Positions 3,827 through 59,400 of a stretch of DNA of 64,000 bases are shown one piece after another. A model generated the notes under the pieces. The model saw only the letters and a program-made list of their open reading frames with translations, was not told where the DNA came from and ran no database searches. The stretch comes from Acanthornis magna (Eukaryota > Chordata > Aves > Passeriformes > Acanthizidae), in assembly GCA_036785705.1 (NCBI GenBank), contig JAWUZG010000174.1:372001-436000 (forward strand). The letters are read 5' to 3'. The position numbers and the translations under genes are program-made. Position 1 is the stretch's first letter. Every line of letters begins with the position of its first letter.

Positions 3827-5001
3827 TCAGCACCGCCCGGCTCGGCCCCGGCACTTGGCGCGGCGGCGGAGCTGAGCCCGGCACAGCCGCGCCGCCCGCT
3901 CGCACCTGCAGGCGCCTCGCTGGCACCACGTCCCGGACCCTGCGGGGACCAACAGTGCTCCTGAGACCTCCCCCGGGCACCCCGGGGCGGCCCCGGGAAA
4001 GGGCACGCCAAGAGGGGATGCTCTGGCAAGGGGCGCCCCGAGGCGCGGGGAGCACTCACTGCAGGCGGGGATCGCCGCCCGGGCCGCAGAGAGAGGCGGC
4101 ACGGCTCCCACGCGGCACCGCCGCGCTGCCAGCCTGGCATAGCAGCAGGCTCGGAGCCGGCAGCACCTGCGGGAGGAGGAGAGCCTGGGCTCATCGGGAA
4201 TGCGGCACCGGCTGCTTCTGACCCGCGGGCCACAGGCTCTGCGAGCCGGGTGGGCAGAGCCGCCAGCTCTGCATCCCCTGCATCCCCATCCAGCTCTGCA
4301 TCCCCTGCTCGGGATCACCCAGAAGCTGCTCTTCCCAGCCCGTTCCCACGCCACACCTCCGCTTCCCCCGAGCAATCCCTGCCCAGCATCCTGGCCTCAG
4401 GACCGTCCCTCTTCGCTGGTGCCATCCCACGGACCAGGCAGCTGTCACTGGCACCGCCCTACTGACTCCGGGATGGAATTAGGGGCGAGCACGGCCTCAC
4501 TTTCCCTGCTTCCCGAAAACCTGATTCCTTCATGCTGCTGCCAAGCACCTGGTCTGCATTTCGCAAAGCTCCGCGGGGGGCTGCTGGGGTTGTGCACAGC
4601 CCTGGGGTTACCCAGGGGCCAGCGTTAGCCCTGTGGGACCAGCGTTAGCCCTGTGGGGCAGCGTTGCCTGTACCGGTCCATTGAAGCCCTCGAGGTGCCC
4701 CATCCCGAGTAGCATCCATGGGCAGTCAGGTTTCCTACGCTGCTTCCTTCGAGTCCCGGTGTGAACGTGCGCGGGTGCTTCCCGTGAGCTGTGAACACAC
4801 CTACAGTGACCGGAAAATGATTGAGTTTTTTTTTTTTGGGGGGGTAATTTGTATGTAGAAATGAAGCCTGGGGAACTGGGGAGGGAAGGAGGCTTTGCTG
4901 GGAGTGCACAGGAGCTAGGGGATGAGCCTGGCTCCCGTCTGTGGGGCAGGGATGCACTTACTGCAGGCAAACAGCGTCATCAGCACCAGTAGGACCTTCA
5001 T
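3827..5001 (-). CDS. Divergent, arginine-rich sPLA2-like protein with all catalytic residues replaced
   Basis: Four coding exons: 4962-5001, 4674-4800, 4060-4166 and 3827-3939 (387 nt, 128 residues plus stop). All splice dinucleotides are GT/AG, and the phases match the neighbouring PLA2 genes. Exons 1 and 3 (40 and 107 nt) equal PLA2G5's; exon 2 is 18 nt shorter. The signal peptide is MKVLLVLMTLFACSVFTAHG. The Ca2+ loop has become HGCYSGWGT. The catalytic segment is CCRLRACCYARL, with His48 to Arg and Asp49 to Ala, and the Asp99 motif reads CRCERAARLC (Asp to Glu). Group II Cys50 and the C-terminal Cys extension are kept. Of 14 expected cysteines only Cys29 is lost. The mature chain has about 24 Arg/Lys against 3 acidic residues. 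Family knowledge says such a protein cannot bind Ca2+ or hydrolyse lipid. It could be a non-enzymatic cationic protein or a decaying pseudogene. An open frame is weak evidence in such GC-rich DNA; cysteine retention is stronger. Confidence 0.65.
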
Positions 5002-5439
5002 CTTCCTCTCACCTGGGCCTGGGAGGAGAAACACGGGACAGGCTCAGCCGGGCAGTGTGGCCAGTGTGACAGGAGCTGCCGTGAGAAGCTTCCTCTGAAA
5101 TCGGATCAACCCCCAAAATCTGGAGGGAAGAAGGCAACTGTGCCCCCTCGCCTCTGTGTTGCTGCCTCTTGGCCGAGAGCAAGGACTTTCTGCAGCTGCC
5201 CCAGTGCCTGAGCATTCCCCACCTCCTGCCCCACCACTCCAGCATTTCTCACTTCCTGTCCCACCGATTTGGCACCCAGGGCACCTCTCCCCCCGCGTTC
5301 CCACCTCCCTGCTGTGTTTTCATTTGGAAGCGATTAATTACACTTTTCCTGCAGGCTCGGGCCGTTCTCGCCGCCTCCTCCCAACACCCCCCGTACTTTT
5401 TCCCCCACAGCAGCGGGGTGAGGGGGGGAGCTGCTCACC
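5002..5439 (-). other. 5' leader region of the PLA2-like gene
   Basis: The start codon exon has an upstream acceptor (tttctcctcccag at 5019-5031, minus strand), leaving 17 untranslated bases at 5002-5018. A noncoding first exon is therefore expected, as in PLA2G5 and the group II gene to the right. A good donor at 5437-5438 (CCG followed by GTGAGC, minus strand) is a candidate end for it. Unlike the other PLA2 genes here, I see no TATA box upstream. Confidence 0.35.
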
Positions 5440-5734
5440 GGAGGATCCTCCTCGCTGTCAGTCTGTCCTCCCGGGGAGAGCTTGCCCTCCGTGTCCAGCC
5501 CGCGAGCTCCAACTGGAAGCTCCAAAATGACTCGTCTGTCCCAAACCCACGGAATGCTACGCCCCTTCCCCCCCCGGCCAGCCCCCCTCTCCCCGTGGGC
5601 TGCAGCCTCGAGTGACGCAGGGGCCGAGACCGAGTTCTTGGAAAGTTTTGGGAAGATGTTGGTTATTTACGGGGATTTCTCTCCCTGCCCAGCAGAAGCT
5701 CTCAGAGGACCGGGGACATTGACCGAGAACATTG

Positions 5735-5851: not shown

Positions 5852-6717
5852 TCAGCACAAGAAGTTGGCATAGTACTGATAGCGTTTCCTGTAGCTCCCG
5901 ACGTTTCTCCTCAGGCACAGCGCCAGGCTGCGGTCACACTCACAGGACAAGAAGGAGCACCGGGAGCCGTTTCCTGCGGGACAAGGGGAGCCCAGGGTCA
6001 GCCCCGGTTCGGGGTGGGGGTGAGACCCCCTTTGCAGAGCCCTACTCACTGCAGAAGAGCTTTCCATGGTGCCAGCTGTAGTGATAGGTCTGTGTCTTGG
6101 CGTCACAGCGGTGGTTCAGGAGGCTTTGGTAGCAAGCATCATGCAGCTGGCAGCATCTGCACAGGAGACCGAAGGTTTAGGGGATGGAATGTTCTCCCCC
6201 TCACCCCCTAAATCTGAGAATATTCAAGGACATATGCAGGCAGGGGCGTTTGAAGTGGGTTCTCACCTGTCTGTGGCATCCTTGGGCTGCCCCTTGCCCC
6301 CCAGGCCGCAGTAGCAGCCGTAGAAGCCGTAATGCAGAAGAGCATTTTTCCCTGTTGCCACTGAGATCATCTTTTGGAGTTGGAAGAGGTTCCCGTGGGC
6401 TGGGGACAAGCCTGGAGTGGGAAAATTGGGGATCACACTGATTCCCTGCGCCTCAGCAGCAGCTCCATCCCTCCAGCCCCCAAACTGGCTCCAGGGTAGT
6501 GATGTCTTAGAAATTCTTATGCTGAAGAAAGGAAATTTGTTCCCAGCTCGGTGCAGGAGAGTTGTTACATGTCTGGGAGAGATGGTGATGGGGAAAGGGG
6601 AAGAAATCACCAGTCTGGCCCGGATTTCAATGAATGTAACTGCACAGAGAGCCTCAGGACTGAGAGAGCACACTTACCCCAAGCAAACAGCACAGTGAGG
6701 CCAAGGAGAGAGTTCAT
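5852..6717 (-). CDS. PLA2G5: Group V secreted phospholipase A2
   Basis: Secreted Ca2+-dependent phospholipase A2, which in mammals acts on phosphatidylcholine-rich membranes. Four coding exons, 6678-6717, 6267-6411, 6050-6156 and 5852-5973, sum to 414 nt, or 137 residues; human PLA2G5 has 138. The signal peptide starts [14 protein letters not shown] and ends before NLFQLQKMI. The Ca2+ loop is YGCYCGLGG, the catalytic segment CCQLHDACY (His48, Asp49, Tyr52), and Asp99 lies in [10 protein letters not shown]. Two linked traits mark group V. Residue 50 is Ala rather than Cys, and the chain ends in NFLC with no C-terminal extension, so the group II 50-to-C-terminus disulfide is absent at both ends. 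The context [15 protein letters not shown] also matches group V. A short untranslated exon and a TATA box lie upstream. I am confident of the family and fairly confident of the subgroup. Confidence 0.88.
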
Positions 6718-9115: not shown

Positions 9116-10872
9116 TCAGCACTGGAGCTTGCTCCCTTGGCATTTGAGCTTGAAGTAAAAGCGGTAGGAATTGTTGTAGGAATGCAGGGTGCTGGCGAAG
9201 CACGAGGCCACCGCCGTGTCACACAGGCAGGTCTCTCTCTCACACCAGCTCTGCTCATTACCTGCGGGGGAAACTGCGGTGGCTTTCCTGCCCGGAGCCC
9301 CCGGGGGGAAGCGCAAGGAGCAGCGTGTCCCGGTGCTTGCCCTCCCCAACCGTGTCAATGCCCATTTAATCATCCACCCGGCCGGGAATCGGGCGGGGTT
9401 CGCCCAGGGGATGCTCTCTGGGGTGTCCTGCTCTGGGGACGGTCCCCGGCCGGGAATCGGGCTGGGTTCGCCCAGGGGATGCTCTCTGGGGTGCCCTGCT
9501 CCGGGGACGGTCCCCGGCCGGGAATCGGGCTGGGTTCGCCCAGGGGATGCTCTCTGGGGTGTCCTGCTCTGGGGACGGTCCCCGGCCGGGAATCGGGCTG
9601 GGTTCGCCCAGGGGATGCTCTCTGGGGTGCCCTGCTCCGGGGACGGTCCCCGCTCGCCGTTCGGTACTCACTGCAGGTGATGTCCCCGCCGCTGGAGGTG
9701 AAGCTGTAGGGGGTGATCAGGGGGCTGCAGCTGCCCTCCCTCAGCCTCCTGTAGCAGCAGTCGTGGGCTTGGCAGCACCTGCGGGGACACCGCGTCACAC
9801 CGCGGCCCCAAACCCTCCCTCACCACTCCTGGAGGGCAGAGGAAGGGCCAGCCTCAAATTTAAGGCGACCAGGAGGAGGAGGAGGTGACAAGACAGCAGC
9901 AGGACATGGCTGGGGAACAGTGCAATTTTTAGGGATTTTTAGGGAGCCCAGGCTGGGAGCGGTGATGCCGTTCTGGTACTCACCGGTCCGTGGGATCCAC
10001 GGGGGTCCCGCTGCCCCCGATGCCGCAGAAACAGCCGTACCAGCTGTAGGACAGCAGGGCACTCCTCCCCGTGGCCGCCCGGATCATCCGCTCCAGCTCC
10101 AGGACGCTGGTGCCCGCCGGGAGCAGCCCTGCGGGGGCACAGGGTGGGCTGGAGCCGGAGCAGGGTGGGGAGCCCGGGGGCGATCCCTGCACCGAGCGCC
10201 AGGCACGGGCATGGCACTGGTCTGGCTTTGCTGGAAATGTGCACTTCCAGGATTTGAACCACGAGAAGCTTTGTCCCCCCCAATCCAGAATTAGGGAATC
10301 ACAGAATCATGGAATGGTTTTGGCTGGAAGAAACCTTAAAGCCTGTCTTGTTCCACCCCCTGCCATGGGCAGGGACACCTTCCACTATTCCAGGCAGCTC
10401 CAAGCCCTGTCCAACCTGGCCTGGGACACTGCCAGGGATCCAGGGGCAGCCACAGCTTCTCCGGGCACCTGTGCCAGGGCCTCCCCACCCTCACAGGGAG
10501 GATGACTTTTACAGTCTGGCTTTTACAGTCACTGGATTTGGTCTGGCACAAGACATTTTGCCCTCTGGACTGGCTCTGCCATGCTGCAAACTGCAATCCA
10601 CTATCGCCAGGGTCAGCCATGGGCTTGGCACAGGCAGGAAGGGTGACAACTCCTGAAATAAATGTGGATCTCAGCATCCCAAAGCCTCCCCATCACAAAG
10701 CCCTCCAGGACTGCAGCAGTTCTACACAAAGCACTAGAGAGAAACTTCCAGATTTAAACATAAGCCTGAATTGTGCACAAAAACTCGGGGTTTGTATGTG
10801 GATCCCAGCCTGGCCGGGGACAGCAGGGCACTTACCACAAGCCAGGAGCATGGCAAGGAGGAGATTCCTCAT
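9116..10872 (-). CDS. Group II secreted phospholipase A2, active-site complete
   Basis: Four coding exons, 10836-10872, 9984-10128, 9672-9778 and 9116-9261, sum to 435 nt (144 residues). The signal peptide starts MRNLLLAMLLACGLLPAG. The Ca2+ loop is YGCFCGIGG, with Phe for the usual second Tyr, which is a mild change. The catalytic segment is CCQAHDCCYRRL (His48, Asp49, Tyr52), and Asp99 lies in CLCDTAVASC. Cys50 and the terminal extension KCQGSKLQC identify group II. The Asn-rich stretch SYNNSY precedes the tail. It sits where human PLA2G2D, 2F and 2C lie, between PLA2G5 and UBXN10, but I cannot assign it to one of them. A 68-bp minisatellite fills most of the intron between exons 3 and 4. 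A TATA-driven noncoding exon lies upstream. Confidence 0.9.
9381..9652. repeat. 68-bp minisatellite, four copies, in a PLA2 intron
   Basis: Copies begin at 9381, 9449, 9517 and 9585, each starting 'gccgggaatcggg' and containing 'ttcgcccaggggatgctctc'. Copies alternate at two sites ('gtcctgctctgg' or 'gccctgctccgg'), suggesting the present array arose by duplicating a two-unit block. Confidence 0.92.
10287..10502 (-). repeat. CR1 LINE 3' fragment, antisense
   Basis: Inverted CR1 tail beginning 'gggaatcacagaatcatgga', followed by the 'gccatgggcagggacacctt' and 'gggatccaggggcagccac' blocks. It lies in intron 1 of the group II PLA2 gene. Confidence 0.9.
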
Positions 10873-11224: not shown

Positions 11225-13896
11225 TGTGCCGAGGCCCACCCCTTCTCTATCTGTGCTGACAGTGTGGGTCGTCCCGAGCTGGGCTTGCCTCGAGCAGGGA
11301 GCAGATTCCCATCCTTCCCCAAAAAAAAAGAGTTTTCCCAGAGCAGTGAGCACCACCATCATCTCGCTCATGGCTGGGCACATCTCCATCCCTGTGTGAG
11401 GCCAGTCAAGACGTTGGCCGTGGTTCCAAAATCCATGGGATTTGGTGGCTGGAGAGATGGGATAAAAGTGATTTATACCCAGGATGGCACCTCAAAGGAT
11501 GTAGAATCCTTGTCCCAGGTGTAGAGACAGCACTTTGTTGTCTCAGGTGGGTCCTTGGTTTTGCCAGCTCACACCCTGAAGCCTCAAAGATGGTTTCTCT
11601 TGGTTCCTTCCCTGTAACTGCCCCCCCAAACCCATGGCTGCATCCAAAGCTGGCCTTGCAAAACTGCAAGGGAGAACAGCAAAAATCAGGATTGCAATTC
11701 CTGGGTCTGCAGTTTTTCCTGTCCTGTCTCTGTGGTTTTCCTGTCTGCCCAGAGCGCAGGGGCAAGGGGTCTGTGAAATTAAACCAGCAGTAGCAAAGGC
11801 TGGAAAAGCCACAGAAACCCAACTTGGAATGCTTTGGTAACACAGTTTATTTAATTCCTGTAACCCAAACATGATACAGAGACACGGGGAAGGCAGAAAA
11901 CCAGAGGAGATAAGGATAAGGAACAAAAGCTGCTGTTTTCCCTCGAAACTGTGGGGCCAAGAGCAAACACAGACACAAATGCGGGTATTGGGTGATATGC
12001 AGGGACTAATTACACTCAAGAGGAAGGGAATTCGGGGTTGGGAATTGTAAAGAAATGACTCACAGGTCTGGGAGTAAAGAAGAGAAACCTTTGCTGAAAT
12101 TCCCGAGAGCCACCAAAGGTGACACTGGAAGGGACATCACCTCTTGTCCGCCCTCCACGGTGGCAGAGCTGTCTCTCCTGGGGTTTTCCTTCCCTCTAAC
12201 CTTTTATTTCCTGCTGCAAGTGGAATAAAAGTCCATCCAGGCCTGTTAAGGATGGGGAGCAACATCTCACCTGCTGCCCCACTCACCATCTGCACAAGAA
12301 ATCACTCCAAAATGCTACAATGACAACCCCAACCTCTGCTTTCCTCACCTGACTTTTAAAACCAGGGCATCCCTAATAATTCATAAATCAATCCCTTTCC
12401 TACCTCCTCCACAAAATACTTCCATTGCAGAAGGTTTTCCTTGCTGTGGTAGTCATTGTCTGCACTGCTCCTGCTTTGGCATTGCAGGTCCTTGGTTTTG
12501 GGGGAAAGATCTGGGGTTTTGCTGTAGAGTTTGGATAAATCCGTGTGAAAAGCATTGTCCAGGGATGGAAATGGAGAGCAGAGGGCTGGGATCACATGGT
12601 TTTGGGATCCACACATGGTTTTAACCAAATCCCCTTGTTTTAAGTGCTCCCTCTCTGTGGAGGATCTCAAGGGAGCACCCACACGAAGCTAAACCCTGTC
12701 TTTAACTAACCCACAAACTCGAGGACTTAAAAACCACCCGTGGAAGTGACTATCCCATTGGAAATACGGAACTTTTCAACCTTCCTATGGAACAAGCAGA
12801 GCCAGGAATCACCCCCCATCTGTTTGTTGAGGGCCTTATTGAAATGCAAATACACTGTGTGCTTTGATCTGAAACTCGCCTGTTTTCCCGGCAGCGTTGC
12901 TAAACATCCTGGGCTGGGGTGAACTGATAGGAGACTATTTCCCTCCTTATTTTATTTATTTTTAGTGCATAGGTTGGCCTTGATCTTCCTGCCCTTGCAG
13001 GGTGGGGACCCCAAGTTTATGGTGGCTATTTATTGCTTTTTTCTTGCTGCCTTCGAAGGGTATCTGTCAGTGGGAGCAGCAGCTGCTTAACTGGGAGTGG
13101 GTTTAGAAAGGGATTAATGGGAAGAGATGGAAAGGTCGGTGTTATGTGGGGTGTTCCCAGAAGGAAAATTGACTCAGGGATCATTTGAAGCCAGGGGGGT
13201 CAGGAGGACACACCCTCCCTCCTGGCTGGAGCTTTCCCAGCACAAAGAAACTGCCCCAAAAGAGTTGTTTTAGGTCCCTGCGTGATCTTGTGTGTAAAGA
13301 GTAATTTTTTAAGGTGTTTTCATCACAATTCATGAGTGTGGGGTTTATTTGTCTGGTTTTATTCAGTGGTCACTGAATAATGTCACAGGGAGGTTAAACC
13401 CTGTCTTGTGCTCCCATCCTGCTGCCTTTGCTCAGGAAGGCCTGTAACGCCTCAGTTTTAAACTTTTAGGGTTAAACCCCAAAGATTTGGGTATTTAAGC
13501 AGGGTGACAACATCGTGGTTTTGCTTTGGGTGGGTTGGAGGAATGAGAATTGCTGCGGGAGGGCTGGGACACCCTGGGCACCACAGTCACCTCCGGGTGG
13601 AGTTTGGGAGAGAGGACCCTGAGGCACCCCCTGCTCCCCCCACTCCTTTATGTCCCACAGGAAAAAGCCTCTGGAAGCTTCCCAATGTCACGGGGCTGCT
13701 GCTGTGCCACGCCGAGGCCTGAAGCTGTGTCATGGCCCTGTGCAGAGCCCACAGCAGCTCACGGGTGTCCCTGAGCCTGAGGACCTCCCCCGGGACCACA
13801 CTGGGACATTCCGGCCCTTCCCAGCCCTGGTTCCATCCACCCCCAGACATCCTGGTTGTCCCCATCCCTGGATCCACCCCGGGACATCCCAGCTGT
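11225..13896. other. Intergenic, no gene seen
   Basis: Spacer between the PLA2 cluster and UBXN10. No sPLA2 exon signature, CR1 piece or recognisable protein-coding segment was found. The open frames present are short and lack domain-like composition. Confidence 0.45.
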
Positions 13897-14779
13897 CCCA
13901 TCCCCGTTCCCATCCCACTTCCTATCCCTGGTTCCCATCCCGGTTCTCATTCCCATTCTGATTCCCATTCTGATTCTGATTCTGATTCCCATTCCCATTC
14001 TGATTCCCATTCCCATTCCCGTTCCCATTCCCATCCCTGTTCCCGCCGCCGTTCCCATTCCCGCCCCCGTTCCCGTTCCTGTTCCCATCCCCATCCCCGT
14101 TCCCATTTCCATCCTCATTCCTATTCCTATCCTCGTTCTCATCCCCATCCCCGTTCCCATTCCCATTCCCATCCCCGTTCCTGTTCCCATCCTCGTTTCC
14201 TATCCTCGTTCCCATTCCCATTCCCATTCCCATTCCCGTCCCCGTCCCCGTTCCCGTTCCTGTCCCCGTTCCTATCCCCGTTCCCGTCCCCGTCCCCGTT
14301 CCTGTCCCCGTTCCTATCCCCGTCCCCGTCCCCGTTCCCGTTCCTGTCCCCGTTCCTATCCCCGTCCCCGTTCCCGTTCCTGTCCCCGTTCCTATCCCCG
14401 TTCCCGTTCCCGTTCCTGTCCCCATTCCCGTCCCCGTCCCCGTTCCTGTCCCCGTTCCCGTCCCCGTTCCCGTTCCTATCCCCGTTCCCGTCCCCGTTCC
14501 CGTTCCTGTCCCCGTTCCTATCCCCGTTCCCGTCCCCGTTCCTATCCCCGTTCCTATCCCCGTTCCCGTTCCTATCCCCGTTCCCGTTCCCGTTCCTATC
14601 CCCGTTCCCGTTCCTATCCCCGTTCCCGTTCCTATCCCCGTTCCCGTCCCCGTTCCCGTTCCTATCCCCGTTCCCGTCCCCGTTCCCGTTCCTATCCCCG
14701 TTCCCGTCCCCGTTCCCGTTCCCGTTCCTATCCCCGTCCCCGTCCCCGTTCCCGTTCCCGTTCCCGTTCCCGTTCCCGC
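13897..14779. repeat. Hexanucleotide-type array, CCCATT then CCCGTT units
   Basis: About 880 bases of imperfect 6-base units. Up to about 14230 the units are mostly CCCATT, with some CTGATT. Beyond that they are CCCGTT, CCCGTC and TCCTATCCCCG combinations. The plus strand is almost purely pyrimidine and the minus strand is a long run of GGGAAC/GGGGAC units. Because the length is a multiple of three, every frame is open and encodes low-complexity peptides (Ser-Pro-Phe, Arg-Ser-Pro, Gly-Thr, Asn-Gly types). These are consequences of the repeat and not genes. It ends directly at the UBXN10 CpG island. Confidence 0.95.
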
Positions 14780-17100: not shown

Positions 17101-17647
17101 CATTCTCTGTTAAGCAGCTTGTGGTCATAGGAGAGTCAAAGCAAGTTTCTGTGTATTGAATCAGGGTTTTTCAAACTCAGTGGTCTTGAGATATCTTTAA
17201 AATATGAAGTATAGTCAGTCTTATCCCAAAATCCACAACGGGAACTGAATCTGCCACTGCATGAACAGTGAAAAGGCCAGAGCTGTGCTCATCTGAGCTT
17301 CACTTATCTCCCATTTGCACTGAGTTTCCAGCTTCATAAGAAAATAATGGTTCTTTCCATCAAAAACTTACATTCAGTTGCAAAGGGCACAACTTCCCAA
17401 AGCTCTGGGTCAACTTTACACAATTCCTGCCGAAGCCAGTCCCTACAAATAACACATCTTCCACCCTCTGTGACTCAGCCCTTACTGCACCGCAGGGTTG
17501 CTGCCTGCCCACACAGTGATACCCCAGATTTATTGCATTATTAGCTGACACGCAGCACAGTGTGGGAGTCACAGGGAGATTGAACTCTCTGGAGACTTTC
17601 TGGCCAGTTCCCGTAACTTTTCCCTCTGCTCCCAGCCCGCAGGTGCG

Positions 17648-18514
17648 ATGGCCACAGCGGCTTTCCTGGACTCAGCACCAGCTCAGCTCTGCTTCCCTCC
17701 GGACACAGCCGCTCTGCCGTGGACCAGCGCTGTCACCATGCACGTCACCAGGCCCAAATCTGCCAAGGGACGGAGGCCAAGCTTGAGCCACCCTCAGGGC
17801 ATGGAAGCCTGTCCGTGCCATGTGCCATCTTCCCTGCTGGCAGCCTCTCCTCGGGAATCAGTGACCAGCCGGAGAGCACTGCTCACAAAACTGGCATTCC
17901 CACCTGCCCAGGTGTCACCTGGGAAAATCCCAAAGCTCCTGCAGCAAGTGCCTTTGAAGAGCTCATCTTCCCTGAACAAGTACCGGGTGCTGCCCTCCAT
18001 CGTCCGCAAGGGCGCAGGGAGCGATGCCGTGGAAGCGTTGGCTGAACGGACCAACCGGCTGGAAGTGAGCGAGGGGCGGGAAGATGCTCCGAAAGTCATC
18101 AAGACTCTTTCTGGAGAGCAGGAATCTGCCAGCACATTGTCAGGAAATGACATTCCCACTAAAGACAGCTCACACATGCACTGTGCCCCTGAGCAGTGGG
18201 GAAGGCAAGTGAGGGAGGAGAGCCCTTGGATGTCCCCTGTAAGCCTGGAAGAGCCGTATGTGCTGCTCGCTGTCCGATCTCCCTCTGGGCAGAGGTTTGA
18301 GCACCACTTCAAGCCCTCTGACAGTCTCCAGATGGTCCTTGCTGTGGCAGGACAGAAATTGTTGGCCAACTACCAGCACTGCAGCATTGAAACCATGGAG
18401 GTGCCCCGGAGGAGCTTCTCTGACCTTACAAAGTCCCTTCATGAATGTGGGATCCTCCCCAAGTCCGTGCTGTGCATCCGACAGGACGAGCAGCGCAATG
18501 CAGAAGATCTTTAG
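17648..18514 (+). CDS. UBXN10: UBX domain protein 10, ciliary p97/VCP adaptor
   Basis: 288 residues in a single coding exon, like the 280-residue human protein. UBXN10 recruits the AAA ATPase p97 and associates with IFT-B, supporting cilium assembly. Conserved short motifs are RPKSAKGRRPS (about residues 35-45) and SSSLNKYRVLPSI (about 106-118). The UBX domain fills about residues 202-278, from LLAVRSPSGQRF to PKSVLCI. It includes the near-invariant HCSIETMEVPRRSFSDL, whose VPRR stands where most UBX domains have FPR. The middle (about 120-200) is weakly conserved and probably disordered. The start is the first ATG after the splice acceptor, and its MATxA opening matches the mammalian protein. 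It lies next to VWA5B1 in mammals, whereas here DDX19 intervenes. Confidence 0.94.
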   Translation: MATAAFLDSAPAQLCFPPDTAALPWTSAVTMHVTRPKSAKGRRPSLSHPQGMEACPCHVPSSLLAASPRESVTSRRALLTKLAFPPAQVSPGKIPKLLQQVPLKSSSSLNKYRVLPSIVRKGAGSDAVEALAERTNRLEVSEGREDAPKVIKTLSGEQESASTLSGNDIPTKDSSHMHCAPEQWGRQVREESPWMSPVSLEEPYVLLAVRSPSGQRFEHHFKPSDSLQMVLAVAGQKLLANYQHCSIETMEVPRRSFSDLTKSLHECGILPKSVLCIRQDEQRNAEDL

Positions 18515-56400: not shown

Positions 56401-59400
56401 TAAATGGTTAACAGCATGCATCCTGCTCTTAATTAAATGCAGCCTAGTTTTGCTATCCCTCCTGCTGCCAGGGCTCCCAGCAGCTCTCCCAGCTCCCAGT
56501 CCTGCTGCCAGGGCTTGACATTTTCGGGAGTGTGAAGCCGAGCCCTCAGCTCATCTCCACGCATGCCGTGCTGGGAAGGAAAGGTCAGCGCTAGCCATGG
56601 GCAGCTTAAACCCCTAGATGCATTCTCAGCTGGCTTCCTCTGGCTAGGAGGAGAGCTCAGGCAGGAGAAGGAGCAGGTTTGGAATAGAAAGGGTTGGCAG
56701 GATATGTCAATATTAGCTTGGTAAATTGCTCCTGGAGCTGCCTAGCTCCCAGTTTTGCTGGTGGTCTCATAGAACACCAAAAATTAGGTGGTGGTGGAGG
56801 TCATATCCTTGTCTGTCACCCAGAGAAAGTATCCTTCCATCCACCACTTTACCACCTCTGCTTCTTGTGGGTGTTGTGCTGGGAATATAGAGTCTGATTT
56901 ACACAGACCTTTCCAGAGCCTTGGGGACAGCGATGAAACCCAGACCTTGCAGAGGGGAACATCTGTGTGGGATGACACCAGAGGTGCTGGAGTGGGGGAT
57001 TCATGTCTCCTGAAAGCGGAGAAACAGTCTCAAAAAAAAAAAGAAAAAAAAAAAAAAGAAAAAAAAGAAAAAGATAAAAATTCCTTTCTCCCATCCCCTG
57101 CGCCTCTCTCCTTTCGTTACTAAGCAACTGGTCCTTGATCTTTCTGTCTCTCTTCTTTTCTTTGGTTCCCAAGTGAAGTCATTAAAATGTCTGGAGGGAT
57201 GAAACTCATATTTCACCTTCTGCATGTCTGGGGAAGGAGCCCCTGGGGCCAGGGTCCCTTGGGGACACCCTGAGGTCTGGTGGAGGGCTTTGTCTGGGCA
57301 CGGATCCCAGCCGGGGATGGGCAGAGAGGGAAGGACCTGTATGATTGCATCCCACGCTGGGGTCGGGCAGGGAGCAGAGGGGATCGGAGGGGACAGAGCA
57401 GGTCTGGGCATGGATGGGATCAGAGGGGACAGAGCAGGTCCGGGCATGGAGCAGACAGATCAGAGGGGACAGAGCAGGTCTGGGCATGGAGCGGATGGGA
57501 TCAGAGGGGACAGAGCAGGTCTGGGCATGGATGGGATCAGAGGGGACAGAGCAGGTCTGGGCATGGAGCGGATGGGATCAGAGGGGACAGAGCAGGTCTG
57601 GGCATGGAGCAGATGGGATCAGAGGGGACAGAGCAGGTCTGGGCATGGAGCAGATGGGATCAGAGGGGACAGAGCAGGTCTGGGCATGGAGCAGATGGGA
57701 TCAGAGGGGACAGGGCAGGTGTGTGCCATTGGCTGCAGCCGGATCCAGCTCTAACATCTGCTCTGCTCACAGCCCCTCCCGGCCATCCCGCACGGCTCTG
57801 GCACCAGGATCCGTGGCACAGGCGCGCGGCGCCCGGCCCTGCTCCAGCGCAGCTGCTTGTCCTTCTGTCATGATGCCAACAGCCCGGCACTGCTGGAGGG
57901 GCTGCAGGAAGCCCCGGCAAGGGGCTTGGAAGCTCTCGATGCCATCGCGAGCCTGCGCTCCTCGTCGGACAGCCGGAGCCCCGGGGATCTGGGTAACTGG
58001 GAGAGGGGAGGCAAGGCCACCAAACCCCAGCCAGTCTCATCTGTCTGTGCTGGGCTTTGGTGGCATTGTGTCGTGCTCCGTGCCACCATGTGAAAATTGG
58101 GAAGGATTAATTATGCTTTCGTGGTGGCAGCGGGGAATTCAGCTCCCAGGGAGGTGATTAATGATCTGCCTCTCCCTCTCTGCAGAGTCTGTCCAGCATC
58201 CATCCCTCACCTTCGAGACCGAGACCTCCTCCGACTGGGAGCCCCAGGACTTGGATATTGGCACTGCCTGCGGCTCCCCACGCTCCCCCAGGACTCTCTG
58301 CAAGGCAGTGGTGAAAGGGCTGAGGAACAACGAGCCCGTGCAGTGGGAAGTCACCTTTGATATCCGCCCTCTGTTCCGGGAGCAGGAGGGACAGGAGGAT
58401 GGTGACACAGACCTGTGGAGTGAGACCTTCCACCACCTGGCAGCCAAGTCACTCATCCAGGACTTGGAGCAGCTCGCCGAGAGGGAGTGTGAAATCGAGC
58501 ATGGTAATGCACAGCTGGCTGCAGGCAGATCCTGCCTGGCCTTTGAAGGCTTTCCAGCAGCCTCAGCAGCCTCTGGAGTGAAAACAAGAGCTGCTGGTGG
58601 TGAAACATTAGGGAATGTCTCACATAGCTCCCAAATAACAGCCCCCTTCAGCTGTCTTGTGCTTTTCTGCTTCTGCAGTCTCACTGCACATGAACATTCC
58701 TGAGCTCATGCTCCTTCCCACTCCTCAGGAGCAGGAGTTGGACTTGATAATCCTTGTGGGCCCCTTCTGACTCAGTATGTTCCATGATTCCGCTGCTTCA
58801 TGCGTCAGGTAACATGGTTATTTTTAAGGATTTGGTCACCTGGAGCTGGGAAGTGGCATCAAACTCCAGCAGCAGCAGCCACGTCACTGCCCTGGGCCAC
58901 ACATGTCCCTGGGCCATGCCAACCCTCTCCTCCATGAATGGCATCTGGGCTTTTAAAGTAAGAGCAGAGGTAGAGTAGGCAGAGTTCAGAGGGATGCAGG
59001 ATCCAGCCCCTGCTGGGCATGAATCCCCAAGCACGGAGGTGGGTCTGGGAGCTGGGTGTGAGGGGTGGGGGAGCCCACGGGGCCCATGGACTCTGACCCC
59101 AGTGTCCCTTCCGCGGCAGGGTCCGGGCGGCGTTTCCAGCTCAGTGCTGTCCACACCAGCAAGGCCTGTAACATCATCAGCAAGTACACGGCGTTTGTGC
59201 CTGTGGACCTGAGCACCAACTCCTACCTGCCCACCCTGGTCCAGTACACCCACACAGGTAACGTGGGGCTGGCAGAGGGGTGGAACCTGTCCTGGCAAGA
59301 AGGTGTCACTGGGAAACCTCTGTCAGGGCAAACCCTATGAAGCCACAGTCCAATTCGGCACCAGACCTATACCCAAGGCCATGGCCAAGTTCTTGGTGGC

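Follow-up and report, generated by a model that had tools for sequence, protein, structure and literature searches.

The locus analyzed here raises the question of what becomes of a secreted phospholipase A2 (sPLA2) gene whose catalytic residues are gone: it may encode a non-enzymatic cationic secreted protein, or it may be a pseudogene under GC drive. The original prediction had named both and favoured a retained fold. The window, that is the whole stretch of DNA analyzed, comprises 64,000 nucleotides of the bird Acanthornis magna and carries four sPLA2-type genes on its minus strand, here named C, B, X and A. Gene X, the subject of this study, extends from position 5001 to 3827. Its three neighbours encode the catalytic His-Asp pair and match the Pfam family Phospholip_A2_1 with 118 to 130 bits. 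These are gene C, a group II sPLA2 (9116 to 10872), gene B, a PLA2G5-like sPLA2 (5852 to 6717) that groups in the tree with the Parus protein P0248, and gene A, a group II sPLA2 with many bird orthologues named PA2GE. Exons 1 to 3 of gene A are located at 400 to 1059 and its exon 4 lies beyond the window (L009, 9848 to 9706). The cluster is flanked by a UBX-domain gene on the plus strand (17549 to 18514; Pfam UBX, E 4e-11), which by its position we take to be UBXN10. Several repeats were also present in the window: a 68-bp unit in about four copies (96% matches) in intron 3 of gene C (9377 to 9652), an extended (TTCCCG)n-like array, rich in pyrimidines and strongly skewed in both GC and AT (13896 to 14778), and a 41-bp minisatellite of about nine copies (57361 to 57720).

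Gene X consists of four exons, all on the minus strand, and encodes 128 amino acids. Exon 1 (4962 to 5001, 40 nt), placed by its translation and a GT donor, contains the start codon and most of the signal peptide and has the length of exon 1 of gene B. Exon 2 (4674 to 4800, 127 nt) encodes the end of the signal peptide, the N-terminal motif PGLEGSSVGNLTAHGC with an N-glycosylation sequon and an eroded Ca2+ loop. The core helix CCRLRACCYARLAARRC, which carries the replacements H48R and D49A, and the wing region are encoded by exon 3 (4060 to 4166, 107 nt). Exon 4 (3827 to 3939, 113 nt with the TGA) encodes the second core helix CQRGACRCERAARLC and the arginine-rich C-terminus KCRGRAGRC. All three introns are of the GT-AG type and the 387-nt frame is open, in agreement with the four exons and intact splice sites originally described. 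The sizes of exons 1 and 3 were said to equal those of PLA2G5, and this was found as well, since they measure 40 and 107 nt in the PLA2G5-like gene B (40/145/107/122 nt). Exon 3 is 107 nt long in all four genes, and exon 2 of gene X is 18 nt shorter than in genes B and C. With four coding exons on the group II plan and a position inside the sPLA2 cluster, gene X was regarded as a member of the family by descent; it is recognized by Phospholip_A2_1 with 41.9 bits (E 1.6e-10, cut-off 32.1 bits). When its own genome was searched, the three matches at E<=0.001 were its own exons 2, 3 and 4. A recent tandem copy as the origin of gene X was rejected, since the gene is single-copy at the sensitivity of this search. 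A 20-bp tandem repeat of 2.6 copies (4616 to 4665) is located in intron 2, just past the donor of exon 2.

Intron 3 (3940 to 4059) is 120 nt long and free of in-frame stops, so that its retention would preserve the frame and add 40 residues. Several isoforms of other birds (P0085, P0087, P0100, P0104 and P0124) change in sequence directly past exon 3. Upstream of the start codon a likely 5' untranslated exon was found on the minus strand at 5439 to 5694, with the donor GTGAGC after 5439 and the acceptor AG at 5020 to 5019. The 5' extensions of the Prinia (P0120), Morphnus (P0122) and Passer (P0124) models match the window at 5694 to 5441 in a tblastn search with their N-termini, the best match reaching 97% over 35 amino acids. 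The joined frame running from this exon into the ATG of gene X contains a stop in the window species and the exon is therefore read as untranslated. Assuming that the three models are RNA-based, their extensions would give an indirect hint that gene X is transcribed.

Translated and numbered by alignment to its neighbours, gene X has Arg at position 48, Ala at 49 and Glu at 99, and its Ca2+ loop reads HGCYSGWGT, exactly as claimed before. Both the His48-Asp99 pair and Asp49 are absent, and the loop (CYSGWGT) departs from the canonical X-C-G-X-G-G. The mature chain of 108 amino acids contains 13 of the 14 group II cysteines, including Cys50 and the C-terminal Cys133, with Cys29 as the one lost, and 24 Arg and Lys versus three Asp and Glu. 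Cysteine count and charge are likewise those originally given. When the residues invariant in genes A, B and C were considered, gene X retained 11 of 12 cysteines versus 7 of 25 other residues (Fisher p = 0.0004), so that the preferential retention of cysteines is not due to chance. The GC content at codon positions 1 and 2 is 0.66 versus 0.47 to 0.52 in genes A, B and C, and the CpG count is 43 versus 13 to 24. GC3 (0.79), however, lies within the range of the neighbours (0.73 to 0.87), and GC drive is therefore not needed.

The retained fold that had been proposed was modelled in part. AF2 models of gene X (mean pLDDT 59.7 and 59.4) contain the two helices of the core with fair confidence; outside these they are poor and a beta-wing was not predicted. 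The helix 1 sequence of sPLA2 is replaced, its place being taken by the new and conserved N-terminal motif, and the Ca2+ loop is eroded. With these models Foldseek gave no match at E<=0.001. At the sequence level the profile matches of gene X include the vipoxin inhibitor chain (1vpi, 1aok_A).

A protein search with gene X yielded 119 proteins at E<=10 and a profile search yielded 143 at E<=1e-3, 120 of which were among the matches listed. At least 129 distinct related proteins were obtained from both searches. The source was named for 123 of them and all 123 were birds; no non-bird relative was present among these source-named matches listed (120 of 143 in the profile search), six further ones being listed without a name. 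The source birds include passerines, parrots, falcons, pigeon, cuckoos, hummingbird, goose, magpie goose, screamer, pheasant, chicken, kiwi, emu, rhea and tinamous, with two entries in some species. Turtle and lizard proteins, which were found among the matches of the comparison with gene A, carry His-Asp. Restriction of gene X to one species was rejected, since its orthologues occur across birds, palaeognaths included. The orthologue proteins are machine predictions, which favour open frames, and the survey detects survivors only, losses being uncounted. Most are named phospholipases in the databases and some bear venom-like names (crotoxin, myotoxin or sphenotoxin-like), for example 'phospholipase A2 crotoxin basic chain-like'.

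Gene X was aligned with 116 of the 129 proteins (117 rows). P0109 and P0110 were dropped as broken models, P0109 (Phaethon) being labelled low quality and being without exon 3 sequence, and P0111 to P0119, P0128 and P0129 were not used. Eight of the 117 rows have a different C-terminus, being isoforms or fusions; among them is the sole chicken row listed (P0106), an isoform without exon 4 sequence. Of the remaining 109 rows, 88 reach the last column. Arg48 was present in 116 of the 117 rows, while at position 49 Ala was found in 100 rows and Ser in 11. Every row had a complete sequon at Asn37, with Thr (110 rows) or Ser (7 rows) at position +2. Cys29 was absent throughout and Cys45 was retained in 114 rows, while the loop between Cys27 and Cys44 varied from 5 to 18 residues. 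The 88 complete rows carried 13 mature cysteines in 77 cases, 12 in six, 11 in two and 14 in three; the odd number of cysteines is hence usual and not universal, as 11 rows deviate from 13. Three of the four rows without Cys50 also lack Cys133, but as many partial models end early, a joint loss of the two cysteines was discarded as a reading. Net charge ranged from +18 to +24 in the complete rows and from +16 to +24 in all 109. Arginines numbered 18 to 23 per chain in 37 chains counted, a hand-picked set (35 with 13 cysteines) that omits some complete rows with lost cysteines. The Turnix velox protein (P0107) evolves fast, diverges unusually far and lacks both Cys50 and Cys126; gene A of Turnix looks ordinary.

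Constraint was compared between sites by counting parsimony changes on the tree of the 109 rows, which has a total length of 14.3 amino-acid changes per site. The 13 cysteines changed 1.2 times per site on average and the N-terminal motif at positions 28 to 39 (PGLEGSTVGNLT), which was chosen after the alignment had been inspected, 1.8 times. In the two core helices the remaining residues changed 6.7 and 8.9 times, the C-terminus 11.7 times, the wing 17.1 times and the Ca2+ loop 19.9 times, the mean over all non-cysteine sites being 11.5. The Ca2+ loop serves as an internal yardstick for weak constraint, and cysteine and motif columns evolve more than ten times more slowly. Arg48 changes once on the tree and position 49 nine times. 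Conservation of the cysteines in many birds, which had been put forward as a check of the retained fold, was evident both from the 77 of 88 complete rows and from their place among the slowest sites.

Of 300 species pairs, furthermore, 256 showed a higher conservation of gene X than of its catalytic neighbour A, with a mean identity of 75.9% versus 68.6%; without the fast-evolving Turnix it was above gene A in 255 of 276 pairs. This comparison covers the window species and 24 bird species with both genes, and its pairs are non-independent. Both sets were taken from database matches, the orthology of each gene A row being assigned by its place among the matches, and Leptosomus and Zonotrichia were omitted for partial or altered gene X models. 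At the protein level, then, the expected relaxation of constraint in a pseudogene was absent, and loss of the catalytic dyad is combined with maintained coding constraint. As gene X is more conserved than the enzyme gene A beside it, a task other than catalysis seems to be under selection. Together with the slow cysteines and motif and the freely evolving loop, this leads us to read gene X as a functional bird-wide non-enzymatic protein and not as a GC-driven pseudogene.

The orthologues form one clade with full support (100/100) on a long stem of 1.7 changes per site. Within it the palaeognaths are separate from all other birds, and the window species falls with kagu and manakin (94/99). The goose sequence groups with pheasant and not with magpie goose (85/81), and most inner forks are below strong support. 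The presence of orthologues in palaeognaths, Galloanserae and Neoaves, with the palaeognaths apart, indicates that gene X and its loss of catalysis predate living birds. Among the three neighbours, gene A is the most similar to gene X, with identity in 38 of 107 aligned columns (36%). A tree constrained to unite gene X with the A-type bird rows is worse by 7.7 log-likelihood units (p-AU 0.25, with a long-branch warning from the program), and an origin from gene A is no more than a candidate.

Gene A, a bird IIE/IIA-like gene mostly named PA2GE, has a similar exon plan and a C-terminus (KCKGRAPSC) that resembles the KCRGRAGRC of gene X. Unlike gene X, it has His48, Asp49, the helix 1 sequence, a full Ca2+ loop and 14 cysteines, and it evolves faster. 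Non-catalytic sPLA2 relatives are a kind already known. The Lys49, Ser49 and Arg49-type homologues of viper venoms are basic group II proteins that are non-catalytic through loss of Asp49 and that keep His48, helix 1 and Cys29. Gene X, in contrast, is a bird gene of the ordinary kind in which His48 and Cys29 are gone along with the helix 1 sequence. The Gln48 inhibitor subunit of vipoxin (1vpi, 1aok_A) belongs, like gene X, to the non-catalytic homologues of group II in which residue 48 has been exchanged; it is an acidic partner chain, whereas gene X encodes a strongly basic chain with a sequon. PLA2G12B and otoconin-90/-22 are non-catalytic secreted PLA2-like proteins of vertebrates that belong to other PLA2 groups, and they resemble gene X in this respect by description only.

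No description of gene X was found in the open-access literature searched, including searches with six database gene symbols. The chicken cluster has been described with the IIA, V and IIE genes and OTUD3, and no further gene appears in the accessible part of that description (PMC4280545). Chicken PLA2G2E has been reported and, going by its name, is a different gene (PMC4625885). A bird-specific clade derived from subclade D was named Pla2g2B (Koludarov et al. 2019, as reported in PMC7767849), which like gene X is a bird-only derivative in the same cluster. The accessible text of PMC7767849 gives no sequence and makes no mention of a loss of catalysis in birds, and the published clade may correspond to gene X or to another bird gene such as B.

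Taken together, gene X is very probably a functional gene, single-copy in this genome and older than crown birds, for a small secreted non-enzymatic relative of group II sPLA2 that would act by binding. That its function is non-enzymatic is the part of this reading we hold most firmly, and judged from the sequences it is highly likely. The alternative raised at the outset is largely settled in favour of a non-enzymatic cationic protein by Arg48, charge and cysteines across birds and by conservation above gene A, its secretion being predicted. The signal peptide, whose N-terminus is conserved and signal-like, would be cleaved before KHPR and the chain would be N-glycosylated at Asn37 (precursor numbering). 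It is expected to fold as two disulfide-linked helices, and the odd Cys45, whose usual partner Cys29 is gone, may link two chains or a partner. An arginine-rich face could contact an anionic extracellular partner such as a glycosaminoglycan or a microbial envelope, and the segment PGLEGSTVGN may contact a specific protein. An anionic or receptor partner is the most likely one, and for binding to an anionic extracellular partner through the arginines the chances appear roughly even.

For the task itself, a role in innate defence is the likeliest single one, in which a cationic disulfide-rich effector derived from a bactericidal sPLA2 would bind or disrupt microbial envelopes without hydrolysis. 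Bactericidal members are known in the group II family, and the location of gene X in the group II cluster, the high net charge of the complete rows and the many arginines in the chains counted are consistent with it. Defence peptides, however, usually evolve fast, whereas gene X is more conserved than its neighbour A, and outside the cysteines its slowest segment is not the charged tail but the N-terminal motif. Since gene X evolves slowly, this role is not well supported and we consider it possible at best. Somewhat less probable still is a bird-specific extracellular signalling or matrix protein that presents the glycosylated motif PGLEGSTVGN on a disulfide-linked two-helix core rich in arginine and probably dimerizes covalently via Cys45. 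The former lipid-binding site would then have given way to the newly evolved motif as the active part. If true, the sPLA2 scaffold would have acquired a novel molecular role linked to a trait common to all birds.

Gene X could also encode a non-catalytic partner subunit that stabilizes, targets or inhibits an active sPLA2 (A, B or C), just as the Gln48 subunit of vipoxin is a non-catalytic partner of an active sPLA2. The usually odd number of cysteines with Cys45 retained though Cys29 is gone, the vipoxin inhibitor chain among the profile matches and the adjoining paralogous enzymes would fit. Gene X, however, evolves more slowly than gene A in the same species without a sign of co-evolution with it, in a comparison that covers gene A only, and we regard such a subunit as improbable. 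Similarly doubtful, and slightly more so, is an extracellular-matrix or mineral-matrix protein, for example of eggshell, inner ear or skin. In otoconia, PLA2-like proteins that are glycosylated and non-catalytic have a function, and an otoconin-like use of the scaffold would agree with the occurrence of gene X in palaeognaths, Galloanserae and Neoaves. Otoconins are acidic, however, whereas gene X is strongly basic, and the literature search yielded no expression evidence for it. A decaying pseudogene, its arginines due to GC-biased gene conversion and its cysteines retained by chance, accounts for the lost catalytic residues and for the raised CpG count and GC at positions 1 and 2, but with GC3 ordinary, open frame, charge and motif conserved in palaeognaths, Galloanserae and Neoaves, cysteine and motif columns far slower than the loop and conservation above catalytic gene A, it was rejected as extremely improbable and for birds overall would hold only if the database models were artefacts.

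For the non-enzymatic binding protein that we favour, the finding has consequences for the annotation of the family. More than 100 bird entries (123 named, 129 listed) belong to the group of gene X and most are filed as phospholipases, though the catalytic dyad is gone. The venom-like names of some orthologues are misleading, and the finding corrects the venom activity they imply. Gene X, older than crown birds, would represent a clear example from nature of an enzyme that became a binding protein, and chicken is the obvious model species.
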